From: Actinomycetota bacterium
GTDB lineage: Bacteria; Actinomycetota; Acidimicrobiia; IMCC26256; VFJJ01
Reading direction: 5' to 3'
Length of the DNA stretch: 64,000 nt
NCBI GenBank assembly: GCA_009886115.1
Contig: VFJJ01000043.1
Span: 1 to 64,000, forward strand
Positions 11,806 to 43,509 of this stretch are shown piece after piece (the stretch's first letter is position 1; every line of letters begins with the position of its first letter). The notes beneath the pieces are model-generated. The model was not told where the DNA came from and did not search any database. It saw only the letters and a program-made list of their open reading frames with translations. A program made the position numbers and the translations under genes.

Positions 11806-11840
11806 CGGCCATCCCCTCTGTTCACGGCGCGGCTGGCCCG

Positions 11841-11889
11841 CTGCTGTCGCTGCTGTCGCTGCTGTCGCTGCTGTCGCTGCTGTCGCTGC
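11841..11889. repeat. Nine-base tandem repeat between argC and argJ
   Basis: The unit ctgctgtcg occurs five times in a row, with a partial sixth, in the 108-base argC-argJ spacer. The copies are identical, which suggests recent slippage expansion. It lies in the untranslated part of the arg transcript. Confidence 0.85.
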
Positions 11890-11913
11890 ACCCAGTGTGC
11901 CCGTCGCCCCGGG

Positions 11914-12960
11914 TCACGGCATGATCCCGATGGCGCTCAGCCCGCAGGTTTCGGGGAGACCGAGCAGGAGGTTGGCGTTCTGAACGGCCTGCCCACTGCC
12001 CCCCTTGACGAGGTTGTCCTCGGCTGCAAGTGCCAGCACGGTGCCGGTGCGGGCGTCGTAGCGGGCGGTGACGTGCACGGCGTTCGATGCGAGTGCCGCC
12101 TTGGCCTGGGGCGGGTTCTCGCCGACGATGACGAAGGGCTCGCCGGCCCAGGCCTCGCGGAGACGATCGAGCAAGCGGGCCGTGGTGAGGCCCGACACCG
12201 CCGGTCGCGCCGTGCAGGTGGCCACGATCCCCCGGTTCATGGGCACCAGGTGCGGCGTGAACAGCACCTGCACGGGCGCGCCCGCCGGGGGCGCGACGTG
12301 CGTGAGCGCCTGCTCGATCTCGGCCGTGTGTCGGTGCGTCATGAGCCCGTAGGCCATGGCGTTCTCGTTGGCCTCGCTGTAGAGGCTGATGGTCGACAGC
12401 CCCCGACCCCGCCCCGACACGCCGCTCATGGCGTTGACGACGATCCCGGTGGGCTCGATCCATCCGGCGCTCATGAACGGCGCCAGGGCGATCGAGCTGG
12501 CCGTGGGGTAGCACCCGGGGTTGGCGACGTGGGGTCGCCCGGTGATGTCGGCGCGGTACAGCTCGACCATCCCGTACGAGAACTCGTCGAGCAGCTCGGG
12601 GGCCTGGTGGGCCTCGCCGTACCACTGCTCGTAGACGTCAGCCGGGAGTCGGAAGTCGGCACCGACGTCGACCACGTGCCGGGCCGCGGCGGTGATCGCC
12701 GCCATCTGCTTCTGCGACTCGCCGTGGGGAAGGGCACAGAAGACGACGTCGAGCCCGGCGACGGCCTCGGCGTCGAAGGCCGCCAGCGTCCGATCGCCGT
12801 AGGCCGACGTCAGCGAGGGATAGAGATCGGCGATGCGGGCCCCGGCGTTCGACTCGCCGCTGGCGTAGACCACGTCGATCTCGGGATGGCCGGCGAGCAG
12901 ACGCAACAGCTCGGCGCCCATGTACCCGGATGCACCGACGATCCCCGCGGACAAGCTCAT
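11914..12960 (-). CDS. argC: N-acetyl-gamma-glutamyl-phosphate reductase
   Basis: NADPH-dependent reduction of acetylglutamyl phosphate to the semialdehyde. 348 residues with an N-terminal Rossmann GIVGASGYMGAELLRLL and the catalytic cysteine in ANPGCYPTA. First gene of the arg operon. The ATG at 12960 lies only six bases from the -10 hexamer of the promoter, and no ribosome site separates them, so the mRNA is probably leaderless or nearly so. Confidence 0.96.
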   Translation of the reverse strand: MSLSAGIVGASGYMGAELLRLLAGHPEIDVVYASGESNAGARIADLYPSLTSAYGDRTLAAFDAEAVAGLDVVFCALPHGESQKQMAAITAAARHVVDVGADFRLPADVYEQWYGEAHQAPELLDEFSYGMVELYRADITGRPHVANPGCYPTASSIALAPFMSAGWIEPTGIVVNAMSGVSGRGRGLSTISLYSEANENAMAYGLMTHRHTAEIEQALTHVAPPAGAPVQVLFTPHLVPMNRGIVATCTARPAVSGLTTARLLDRLREAWAGEPFVIVGENPPQAKAALASNAVHVTARYDARTGTVLALAAEDNLVKGGSGQAVQNANLLLGLPETCGLSAIGIMP

Positions 12961-12995: not shown

Positions 12996-13002
12996 GCCCC
13001 TC

Positions 13003-13049
13003 CGAGCACCTGTCGCTGCCACGACGTCGATGCGTGGTCAGCGACAGGT
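13003..13049. terminator. Strong hairpin between the lipoprotein gene and the arg promoter (palindromic element P1)
   Basis: An 11-bp arm acctgtcgctg / cagcgacaggt encloses a further ccacg / cgtgg stem with one bulged base, making a nearly continuous 16-bp hairpin with a 9-base loop. It lies downstream of the small lipoprotein gene and just upstream of the arg promoter, so it can end the incoming transcript. The sequence cgagcacctgtcgct in its left arm recurs in inverted form at 42883-42897. Confidence 0.65.
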
Positions 13050-13130
13050 ACGGGAGATCTTGGCGGCAGCATCAGCCCACGATGGCTCGAGGTCAGGCCT
13101 CAGCGGGGGGCCGAGTGCTGGTGGGTCCGA

Positions 13131-13418
13131 TCAGCCCTCGCCGAGCGCGGCGAGGTCGGCGCCGCATTCCTCAGCAGCCGCCAGCGTCACGTCGAAGGCA
13201 CGGGAGAGGAGCTCCTCGTCGGCGGTGTCCTCGGATACGGCCTTGATCTCGTCGCCGGATAACTCGGCCTCGATCTTGGTGCCGATGCAGTCGGCGGTGT
13301 CCGCGTCGACGCCAAGGCTCGACTGGATGTCGCCGCGGTCGACGGTGGTGTCCTTCGAGCAGGCCGACAGGGTCAGCATGAGGGCGGATGCAGCGATGGC
13401 AGCAAGGAACTTCTTCAT
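13131..13418 (-). CDS. Small predicted lipoprotein, unknown function
   Basis: A 95-residue protein with a clear lipoprotein signal: Lys-Lys start, hydrophobic AAIAASALML core, and lipobox LSAC with Cys at 20. The mature part is acidic, predicted mostly helical, and has two further cysteines (DADTADCIG and AEECGAD) that could form a disulfide outside the membrane. A GGGAG ribosome site lies seven bases before the ATG. It is flanked by its own terminator-like hairpin and by pheT, so it is probably a single-gene unit. I do not recognise a family; it has the size and pattern of small actinobacterial lipoproteins of the DUF732 kind, but the match was not tested. Confidence 0.8.
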   Translation of the reverse strand: MKKFLAAIAASALMLTLSACSKDTTVDRGDIQSSLGVDADTADCIGTKIEAELSGDEIKAVSEDTADEELLSRAFDVTLAAAEECGADLAALGEG

Positions 13419-24471: not shown

Positions 24472-24505
24472 TCCGGGGATCGTACCCAGCCCACCCCTCC
24501 CCCCG

Positions 24506-24552
24506 AAATTTGTGCGGAAACAGTCGCCACGCGACTGTTTTTGCACAAATTT
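24506..24552. repeat. Long AT-rich palindrome between rsmB and rpe (element P2)
   Basis: Two 22-base arms (24506-24527 and 24531-24552) separated by a 3-base loop; the arms begin aaatttgtgc and end gcacaaattt. The only mismatches are two positions that would be G-U pairs in plus-strand RNA. It is far more AT-rich than its surroundings. The flank just before the left arm is cccctccccccg, which also precedes the palindrome inside priA. It may act as a terminator after rsmB, but its form suggests a small dispersed palindromic element. Confidence 0.85.
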
Positions 24553-24569
24553 GGGACGGTGGTGGCCGT

Positions 24570-27572: not shown

Positions 27573-29390
27573 TCACACGCGACGAGGGTCGACCTCGATG
27601 CGCACGGGGCTCGGAGCATGGGCCGTTCCGGCGATCTGCGCCAAGGCGTCGCAGAGCATCACAACCGTCGACGCCTTGACGAGGGCCCGGTGGCTGAGGC
27701 CCCGAGCCGCGGCCAGGGGCCCGAGCACCACGATCCCGGTGATGGCTTCGAGCACCGCCGCGCTCTGGGCGACCTCGGACGGTGATCCCCTGATCTCGGC
27801 CAGCGCCGAGAACGGCGGCACGTTGCTGATGAGACGCCGCTCACGTTCGGCCTCGACGGCCAGCGACGGGTTGGCGTGCACCACGGCACGCACCACGGGA
27901 TGATCAGGCATCCGGGTCTGGAGCAGGAGCCGACCTGGGCCGGGGCGCCCCCCGACGAGGCGGGCGGCTCGGGCCATCATCCACAGCGTCTGCTCAGCGG
28001 CCCGGAACCGGGGTGCCGCGAGCTCCTCGTCGAGATCGAGGAACGCCACCAGACCCACACCCCGACCGGCCCGATGGAGGGCCGCCTCGGTGCCGACGAT
28101 CACCGCGGCGTGCGCGATCGCGCTCGGGTCGACGGGTGCGTCGCCGGTGAGCTCGATCGTGGTGCTGCGAGGAACCAGCGCCGACAGTTCCTCGACGAGC
28201 CGCTTCACTCCCGGGCGCAGCAGGGCCATTCGGATGGAGCCGCACGCGCCGCAGACCCGGGGTCGACGGGTGCCGCACAGGGGGCACACGAGTTGCTCAC
28301 CGTCGTCGCGCAGCGCGCTCGCGCAGTGCTCGCACGTGACCAGCGCTCGGCACTGACCGCAGGCCAGCAGCCGCGCCCGACCCTTGCGGTTCAGGACGCA
28401 CACGACCCGACGACCGGCCTCGACGTGGGCCCGGAGCCCGTCGACCAGCGCCGGCGAGATCAGGCCCAGTCCCGGCGGCTCTTCGCGGCGGTCGGCCACC
28501 TCGACCACGGGCCATCCGGCGCGCTCGGCGTCGCGACCGGGCACCTCCAGCGTTCCGGCCGCCAAGGCCTCAAGCGTGAAGAGGGGCCCCATCGACACCA
28601 TCGGTACCCCGAGGCGACGGGCCCGTTCCCGAACCACGTCCCGGGCGTCCCAGCTGGGGGCGCGCTCCTCTTTGTGCGACTCGTCGGGATCGTCGAAGAG
28701 AACGACCAGCGCCAGGTCGGGGACGGGCGCCCACGCGGCGATCCGGCCGCCGACCACCACCACCCCACCTCGGCGTGCCGCCGTCCACGATGCTCGGCGC
28801 TCGGCGTCGCTCTGGTCGCTGCTCCAGAGCACGGCCCGGCGGCCCTGCCGGCTCAGCATCTCGACCAACCGTGCGGCCCTGCGGCTGTCGGGGTCGATGA
28901 CGATGGCCGAACCCTCGGTGCCGGCCCCCGACCCGTCGATCAGGTGCTCGTCGAGCAGCGCCGACAGGCGGGGCAGCCGATCGACGTTCGGCGCCGTACG
29001 GATCAGCCGCGGCCCCTCCCCCGTTCTTTGCGTCCAGGACCGTGCCTGGCGCAGTTCTGGACGCAAAGAAGGCTGGGGGACGAGCCCCGGAGGCGCAGCG
29101 GCACGGAAGAACGCGACCCGGGGGCCAGCCCAGCGCCAGGCGGCCCACGCCGTGAGATCGACGATCTCGGGCGGCGGCCCGTCGCCGAGCATCGCGACGA
29201 TCGGCCGCAGTCGAGCGGGCTCGACCCCGGGCTCCACGTCGACCTCGACGACCCACCCCCGAAGGCGCCGACCGTGCAGCGCGATCCTCACGAGAGCGCC
29301 GACGCGGACCTGCTCGACGAGCGAGGCCGGCACCAGGTAGTCGAAGACGCGATCGAGCGCCGGCACGTCGGGCAGAACCCGACAGACCAA
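27573..29390 (-). CDS. priA: PriA-like primosomal protein N', helicase motifs degenerate
   Basis: Replication restart protein family. The N-terminal DNA-binding part (LPDVPALDRVFDYLVPASL...VRIALHGRRLRGWV) and eight zinc-binding cysteines (CGQC, CEHC, CPLC, CGAC) are present. The Walker A motif is missing: the matching place reads DGSGAGTEGSAIV, and the DEAH box is FDDPDESH. Loss of the helicase motor is typical of actinobacterial PriA. A 17-base inverted repeat is inserted in frame near residues 107-122. Start uncertain: TTG at 29390 with AGGA upstream, or CTG at 29438 overlapping the metK stop. Confidence 0.9.
   Translation of the reverse strand: MVCRVLPDVPALDRVFDYLVPASLVEQVRVGALVRIALHGRRLRGWVVEVDVEPGVEPARLRPIVAMLGDGPPPEIVDLTAWAAWRWAGPRVAFFRAAAPPGLVPQPSLRPELRQARSWTQRTGEGPRLIRTAPNVDRLPRLSALLDEHLIDGSGAGTEGSAIVIDPDSRRAARLVEMLSRQGRRAVLWSSDQSDAERRASWTAARRGGVVVVGGRIAAWAPVPDLALVVLFDDPDESHKEERAPSWDARDVVRERARRLGVPMVSMGPLFTLEALAAGTLEVPGRDAERAGWPVVEVADRREEPPGLGLISPALVDGLRAHVEAGRRVVCVLNRKGRARLLACGQCRALVTCEHCASALRDDGEQLVCPLCGTRRPRVCGACGSIRMALLRPGVKRLVEELSALVPRSTTIELTGDAPVDPSAIAHAAVIVGTEAALHRAGRGVGLVAFLDLDEELAAPRFRAAEQTLWMMARAARLVGGRPGPGRLLLQTRMPDHPVVRAVVHANPSLAVEAERERRLISNVPPFSALAEIRGSPSEVAQSAAVLEAITGIVVLGPLAAARGLSHRALVKASTVVMLCDALAQIAGTAHAPSPVRIEVDPRRV
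29024..29070. repeat. Palindrome inside priA (element P3)
   Basis: Arms ttctttgcgtccaggac (29024-29040) and gttctggacgcaaagaa (29054-29070) are inverted repeats with one G-T difference, and outer tccccc / ggggga (29017-29022, 29075-29080) extend the stem. The flank cccctcccccg directly before the left arm matches that of the palindrome at 24506. It is read through in frame as part of PriA between two poorly conserved segments, which suggests an insertion tolerated by the protein. Confidence 0.8.

Positions 29391-42019: not shown

Positions 42020-42023
<4 letters not shown>
41019..42023 (-). CDS. pyrB: Aspartate carbamoyltransferase catalytic subunit
   Basis: Joins carbamoyl phosphate and aspartate. 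334 residues with [14 protein letters not shown], the HPTQALLD motif and [13 protein letters not shown]. No regulatory subunit PyrI is present, as usual in actinobacteria. The last 30 residues are a Gly/Ala-rich tail beyond the normal end. ATG overlaps the pyrR stop as ATGA. Confidence 0.97.
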
Positions 42024-42712
<689 letters not shown>

Positions 42713-42743: not shown

Positions 42744-42852
42744 ACCGTTAACGGGTCGAAACAGACGAGCCGACTTTAGCGAGCGCCCGCGGCCCAGGCT
42801 CGGATCGATCCGGGGTACGCGTCCGCGTGCCCCAGACCTCACACCAGCGGAA

Positions 42853-42895
42853 CACCTGTCGCTCAACCGCATCTCTGCCCGTTGAGCGACAGGTG
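42853..42895. terminator. Strong hairpin between DUF2017 gene and pyrR (palindromic element P4)
   Basis: A 15-bp perfect stem cacctgtcgctcaac / gttgagcgacaggtg with a 13-base loop, just after the DUF2017 stop and upstream of the pyrR leader. It probably ends the nusB-clpS-DUF2017 transcript. Fifteen bases of its right arm and flank are identical, in reverse complement, to the left arm of the hairpin at 13003. Confidence 0.7.
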
Positions 42896-42906
42896 CTCGA
42901 TGGGGT

Positions 42907-43509
42907 TCAGCTCATGAGGGCGTCGAGGAGGGCGCCTTGGACCATGGTGAGCCAGGCGTAGATGGCGAATGGCGCGGTCTCTGGATCGTCGGGATCGAGA
43001 TCGTCGTCGTTGCTGTCCTCGGTCACGCCGAGGACCGTTCCGAGGGCCAGGCGAGCGTCGTTCAGAACGCCCAGCCAGGCCTGCGTCTCGTCGGGGCTGA
43101 GCTCGAGCTCGACGAGGCCGCCGGGCCTGGTGATGGCCCGTTCGAGCGTCACCGACACCAGCGAGAGCGCGGCTAGGCGCTCGCGCACGAGATCCTCGTG
43201 CACGAGCCGCTGGAACTCGGTCTCGGCTTCCTCCTCGGTGGGATCGAGGTAGGCCCGGGGGAACAGGCGGGCGAAGATCGGGTCGACCGGCCGTGGCGCG
43301 TCCAGCGCGTCGGGGGTGTTCTGCGCATCAGGGTCACCCGGTGTCGCAGGGGCATCCGACCCGCCGGCCTCGTCGGGAGCAGCCGCGGCCATTGCACCGC
43401 CGACGACCTGTTGCAGCTCGCCGGGAAGGCGGTTCAGGAGCTCGCGCTCCTCCGACAGCATCCGTACCAGCACGAAACCGTTGCGGAGGAGCTTGAAGCG
43501 CCGGGCCAT
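42907..43509 (-). CDS. DUF2017 family protein
   Basis: 200 residues. The opening MARRFKLLRNGFVLVRMLSEERELLNRLPGELQQVV and the end ETQAWLGVLNDARLALGTVLGV.. YAWLTMVQGALLDAL match the pattern of DUF2017 proteins that follow clpS in many actinobacteria. A low-complexity Asp/Pro insert (about residues 44-75) splits the domain. Cytoplasmic, function unknown; six bases after clpS, so a role with ClpS or the Clp protease is a fair guess only. Confidence 0.88.
   Translation of the reverse strand: MARRFKLLRNGFVLVRMLSEERELLNRLPGELQQVVGGAMAAAAPDEAGGSDAPATPGDPDAQNTPDALDAPRPVDPIFARLFPRAYLDPTEEEAETEFQRLVHEDLVRERLAALSLVSVTLERAITRPGGLVELELSPDETQAWLGVLNDARLALGTVLGVTEDSNDDDLDPDDPETAPFAIYAWLTMVQGALLDALMS

Follow-up and report, generated by a model that had tools for sequence, protein, structure and literature searches.

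Hairpins beside argC and pyrR in an acidimicrobial genome: probable solo copies of a REP-like dispersed palindrome with a candidate nuclease mobiliser

Two hairpins in a 64,000-nucleotide stretch of an Actinomycetota genome of the class Acidimicrobiia (contig VFJJ01000043.1; the whole stretch is called the window here) have one 15-mer in common, which raises the question of what kind of element they are and whether they act as terminators. The 15-mer, CGAGCACCTGTCGCT, occurs exactly at 13003-13017 on the plus strand and at 42885-42899 on the minus strand, as the original prediction had stated, with partial arms at 13040-13054 (minus) and 42849-42863 (plus); when up to three mismatches are allowed it has 14 matches in the window, against a mean of 5.6 and a maximum of 12 in shuffled sequence. 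The full elements, a 57-nt palindrome at 13001-13057 and a 56-nt palindrome at 42847-42902, both on the minus strand, exceed the extents first given for them (13003-13049 and 42853-42895). Folded on the transcribed minus strand they reach -44.6 and -42.4 kcal/mol (z-scores of -5.7 and -6.0), respectively, and no shuffled sequence was as stable. The copy at 13001-13057 is atypical: its loop has diverged and it lacks one outer arm. Neither hairpin, nor any of the copies found in relatives, matched a family in Rfam.

The 13001 copy is preceded by a small ORF with a weak lipoprotein-like N-terminus (13131-13418, minus strand; a gene call with only a sub-cut-off match to YgdI/YgdR), whose stop codon is 74 nt away, and is followed by argC (11914-12960, minus strand; TIGR01850, E 1.8e-107), whose start codon is 41 nt away. 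The 42847 copy starts 5 nt past the stop codon of a DUF2017 gene with distant similarity to AosR (42907-43509, minus strand; PF09438, E 6e-37; NF051854 below cut-off) and lies upstream of pyrR (42020-42712, minus strand; NF003549 above cut-off). This layout fits the proposal that each hairpin separates the 3' end of a transcript from the promoter of an arg or pyr operon, but no sigma-70-like promoter was detected at either copy. Elsewhere in the window, a partial 16S rRNA gene (RF00177) occupies positions 1-351 on the minus strand at the very start, and the argJ-argC junction (11806-11915) carries a short tandem repeat near the argC 3' end, read as SDSSDSS, or as CRCCRCC in other frames.

A search of the 5.45-Mb assembly found that the 15-mer is not unique to the two sites. 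Its 10-mer core, ACCTGTCGCT, occurs 64 times, compared with four occurrences of the reversed control, and many of these matches form inverted pairs at a fixed spacing. Many unpaired matches lie within coding sequence, where their codons specify Leu-Ser-Leu, so that the paired copies are the feature of interest. A covariance model (R1) built from 13 hairpins identified 24 intergenic copies, which we call family A, plus two weak matches within coding sequence. The 13 hairpins match the model by construction and both window copies are among them, so that the R1 scores of the latter (51.7 bits, E 3.9e-11 at 13001; 71 bits, E 8e-17 at 42847) are partly built in. The family A unit is about 55 bp long and consists of two inverted arms of conserved sequence around a variable centre, with stems of approximately 18-24 pairs and the consensus CGAGCACCTGTCGCT(C/G)AAGGG...GTGCGGTTGAGCGACAGGTGCTCG on the transcribed strand. 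The 15-mer arm is exact in 16 of the 24 genomic copies and within two mismatches in 23.

Genes were called by a finder whose training used codon-position composition, and the placement of the copies relative to them is strongly biased. Nineteen lie in co-directional gaps, five in convergent gaps and none in divergent gaps, an absence with a probability of 8e-5 if judged by placeable length (33% of which is divergent) and of 0.003 if judged by gap count (21%). The median distance from the stop codon to the copy is 24.5 nt, with 23 of the 24 copies within 100 nt, and within the co-directional gaps copies lie closer to the upstream stop codon than expected from random placement in those same gaps (P 0.004). 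The polarity of the loop agrees with the direction of transcription in 19 of the 24 copies (P 0.007). We also observed that for 16 of the 19 co-directional copies the genes are on the minus strand of the contig; contig orientation should be arbitrary and this may be chance.

Family A is not the only palindrome of this kind in the genome. A scan for palindromes based on structure alone, with no sequence requirement, revealed family B (AAATTTGTGCGGAAA), of the same size class as A and with at least 24 copies, 24 of them with the exact core; family C (CAACTGTCAGCGTG), with about 33 copies, nearly all in pairs at identical spacing; and family D (GTTCTTTGYGKCC), of the same size and with several members. 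Families B and D have one copy each in the window, at 24503-24555 (AAATTTGTGCGGAAA..., 21 of 24 positions paired, fold z -6.3) and at 29022-29072 (GTTCTTTGCGTCC..., 20 of 24 paired, fold z -5.7), respectively. Some family C palindromes are paired 1032 (C52), 1322 (C120) and 1053 bp (C131) apart, spacings expected for a bracketed nuclease gene of the type described below.

A scan for the exact arm pair, with each GTDB species represented by one genome, found no other genome that had it in family A form. Eight scattered single arm-pair matches were attributed to chance by our own estimate and are read as coincidences of the 10-mer, and the same reading was given to an unrelated palindromic family in a metagenome-assembled genome labelled Prevotellaceae and to tandem hairpins in viral contigs. 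The former (CASGAM01 contigs) has about 20 copies of a palindrome of its own, of approximately 73 nt with nested GCGACAGGTCG and CGACCTGTCGC motifs (L066, L068-L070, L072-L077, L079, L080, L084-L086, L088, L090-L093), in which only the 10-mer core is common with family A, and the latter, eleven IMG/VR contigs (L094-L104), have in common a short array of GCGACAGGT hairpins and apparently form one related group.

With the looser pattern GTCGCTC-N19-GAGCGAC, homologous hairpins turned up in relatives of the same order. A second covariance model (R2) matched 19 of 61 genomes, namely the genome of the window and 18 of 60 relatives, all within the order, and beyond it yielded only single weak matches across some 280 other genomes from the phylum. 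Gene content and GC suggest that the order probably consists of Acidimicrobiia-like actinobacteria. The stems covary among relatives, with 27 double (compensatory) changes compared with 10.0 after shuffling, and a covariation score of 0.357 compared with 0.132. In the relative G003, which like G013 carries several palindrome families located mostly at gene ends, none of the 26 intergenic R2 copies with both neighbours known is in a divergent gap (P 8.6e-7), and the copies lie a median of 5 nt past the stop codon. In G020, some copies lie within called genes or between divergent genes, indicating that the 3'-end rule is not absolute. Two genomes of one genus, G003 and G018, have 84 and 2 R2 strand-hits, respectively, so that copy number or arm sequence appears to shift fast within a genus. 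The original suggestion of a dispersed element is thus borne out and was an understatement, given that family A alone has 24 copies, that at least three more families accompany it in this genome and that relatives in the order have homologous ones.

Are these hairpins terminators, as was first proposed? One could suppose that the palindromes are sequence-conserved, U-less bidirectional terminators: in this order the stem sequence would be read by the polymerase itself or by a termination factor, and selection would keep the arms alike. The avoidance of divergent gaps, the proximity to stop codons, the high stability of the hairpins and the agreement of loop orientation with transcription all accord with this. 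However, neither window copy has a U-tract, and a canonical intrinsic terminator (a GC-rich hairpin followed by a U-tract) was detected at neither place. Selection on the stem in the transcript would be expected to leave more G·U than A·C mismatches, but on the transcribed strand of the co-directional copies the two are about equally common (30 and 26), with no sign of selection at the RNA level; stems as stable as these tolerate single mismatches, so this result is also compatible with a terminator. Several unrelated arm sequences coexist within one genome, and the G020 copies that break the 3'-end rule do not suit terminators either. Moreover, repetitive extragenic palindromes (REPs) of other bacteria are also located near gene 3' ends, between convergent or co-directional genes (PMC3733652); since 3'-end placement is normal for REPs, it is no proof by itself of a role in termination. 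Recruitment as a terminator is therefore possible but unsupported, and we regard a family of dedicated terminators as unlikely. Once in place, family A copies may nevertheless be U-less, weakly bidirectional 3'-end hairpins.

A different explanation is offered by genes that such palindromes bracket. In the relative G015, two near-identical palindromes 1032 bp apart (L165) flank a gene for a protein of 317 aa whose N-terminus is AbiEi_4 and whose C-terminus is DUF559/MTES_1575 (PF04480, 4.6e-9; PF13338, 8.5e-6), the MTES_1575 domain being a Vsr-type restriction endonuclease (REase) domain (PMC3710099). Four more relatives of this protein, at distinct loci, were identified among all ORFs of the regions examined. 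One is in the genome of the window (L118, 5546-6562), where family D palindromes bracket the gene; another, in G003 (L237), is bracketed by an R2-type palindrome; the one in G020 (L240) has a good palindrome on one side and a degenerate one on the other; and a second gene in G003 (L212) has no palindromes. In four genomes, this one included, AbiEi plus Vsr-like endonuclease genes are thus bracketed by two palindromes that belong to the same family as each other. In three of the five nuclease genes the two flanks have an identical stretch of 18-28 nt, compared with none of 1188 control genes at 18 nt or more (control maximum, 16 nt). The predicted structure of the nuclease (pLDDT 82) was matched by Foldseek to the AbiEi antitoxin (6y8q) and to the catalytic domain of the homing endonuclease I-Bth0305I (3r3p). 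Plasmid and viral searches with the nuclease of the window's genome as query returned nothing useful. AbiEi and DUF559 proteins are usually discussed as parts of defence or toxin-antitoxin systems, and among the papers searched none connected either nuclease type with dispersed palindromes, which is not proof of absence.

The association extends to stand-alone DUF559 genes in other phyla. With a DUF559 consensus that serves as a probe only, we examined 19 such genes from alphaproteobacteria, Deinococcus, cyanobacteria and Neisseria, all in plasmid records. The flanks have at least 13 nt in common in 12 of the 19, compared with 7 of 113 control coding sequences from the same regions (Fisher 5e-8), and the common sequence is usually a hairpin. 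Several of the genes interrupt operons (suf, pnt and paa). In Deinococcus psychrotolerans, the DUF559 unit lies directly past the stop codon of paaD and is bounded by terminal inverted repeats of about 56 bp, whereas in Deinococcus QL22 paaD-paaZ lacks both the unit and the terminal repeats and represents an empty site. A Sinorhizobium DUF559 gene is bracketed by a hairpin that is itself dispersed, with at least 950 occurrences in 223 plasmid records. On three Deinococcus plasmids (L307, L313 and L315) a DUF559 gene is found in the hpa cluster at differing positions, which suggests repeated insertion or movement.

On these grounds, the two hairpins probably belong, as solo copies, to a dispersed REP/REPIN-like palindrome family, for which a Vsr-like nuclease is the candidate mobiliser; that the palindromes move at all is inferred. 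The evidence that carries this reading is the multicopy, intergenic occurrence next to gene 3' ends, the coexistence of several families of one size class in a genome, the homologous families with compensatory changes in relatives of the order, the lack of a RAYT, and the bracketing of AbiEi/Vsr-like genes by palindromes of the same class at a far higher rate than for control genes. It is reasonable to suppose that the AbiEi-like N-terminal half of the nuclease would recognise the palindrome and that the Vsr/homing-endonuclease-like half would nick or cut, after which the bracketed gene, and solo palindromes in trans, would be copied to new places. The copies that survive would be mainly those just past stop codons, which either do no damage or reflect a preference of the insertion step. 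Several observations weigh against this explanation. No family A copy was found to bracket a nuclease gene, and because the bracketed copy in the same genome belongs to family D, a nuclease partner for family A is an assumption. Among the five nuclease genes of the order, L212 lacks palindromes and L240 has a degenerate one on one side. Neither a target-site duplication nor an empty site has come from the window's own order, the single empty site being that of Deinococcus. Furthermore, the agreement of loop polarity with transcription is not predicted by simple mobility.

The nuclease association could also reflect a guest gene that prefers such sites. In this case the nuclease would be a passenger, for example a homing or defence gene inserting at existing palindromes, and the palindromes themselves would spread by another route such as gene conversion or an undetected transposase. 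Homing endonucleases do insert at sites that they recognise, and the catalytic half of the protein resembles I-Bth0305I. However, the regions examined seem to contain more solo palindromes than nuclease genes, and in D. psychrotolerans the terminal repeats are part of the insert and missing from the empty site. We consider a mere passenger improbable and keep the Vsr-like nuclease as the candidate mobiliser.

How do the palindromes compare with known systems? Family A is multicopy, extragenic, 3'-biased and structurally palindromic, as REPs are, and the bracketing of a nuclease or transposase gene by the same repeats is seen for family D and in the relatives. The resemblance to REP/REPIN systems with a RAYT (TnpA_REP) is broad: the palindromes are short, extragenic and present in tens of copies, their arms are conserved and their centre varies, a genome has several families, they lie next to gene 3' ends and avoid divergent gaps, and the same repeats flank a nuclease gene. 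In contrast to REP/REPINs, in which REPs of 20-40 bp are paired, the unit here is a simple palindrome of about 55 bp, and the candidate enzyme is an AbiEi plus Vsr-like REase instead of a Y1/HUH transposase. Spread by a RAYT (a Y1 tyrosine transposase), for which copy number, 3'-end location and the several families per genome would speak, is largely refuted: Y1_Tnp (PF01797) was found neither in the genome of the window, of which about 4% is missing from the assembly, nor in any element-bearing relative, the five genomes in which it is present all lack R2 elements, and a GTAG tag next to the stem is not a conserved feature of the aligned copies. The palindromes are consequently REP-like but not RAYT-REPs. 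The CGTC REPs resemble them in being dispersed palindromes with a 3'-end bias and no dedicated transposase reported, but have stems of 8-9 bp, an unpaired CGTC tag and CCA tails (PMC3733652), unlike the single long stem of about 18-24 pairs with no unpaired tag; the GCGTC within the stem of some arms was not counted as such a tag. Palindromic MITEs and insertion sequences with terminal inverted repeats are similar in having a gene-between-repeats copy, many solo copies and, in one Deinococcus case, an empty site, and differ in that no transposase homology was detected and no target-site duplication was shown here.

That the arms are uptake signals, as DUS in Neisseriaceae, with inverted pairs at gene ends doubling as terminators and different arm versions among relatives recalling species-specific DUS dialects, is very hard to sustain, given that the unpaired 10-mers inspected lack the extended GAGC... 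context and seem to be accounted for by the Leu-Ser-Leu coding stretches in which they lie, that several unrelated families of the same size coexist, and that family A copy numbers are far below those of DUS. Integron attC sites were also considered and rejected: the RYYYAAC/GTTRRRY end boxes are absent, the ends are CGAGCACC...GGTGCTCG, and the copies are dispersed singly and form no cassette arrays.

More tentatively, Vsr/homing-endonuclease-like proteins, both AbiEi-REase and stand-alone DUF559, may constitute an unrecognised class of mobilising enzymes that, in bacteria of several phyla, spread families of short palindromes and parallel the REP system without a RAYT. Many bacteria carry REP-like palindromes, and some families, such as the CGTC REPs, have been reported without a known mobilising enzyme; a named nuclease that is bracketed by palindromes in several phyla would turn the open question of their mobiliser into a direct bench test. 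It would also provide a candidate role for DUF559 and AbiEi-REase genes, which are otherwise classed with defence genes or as being of unknown function.
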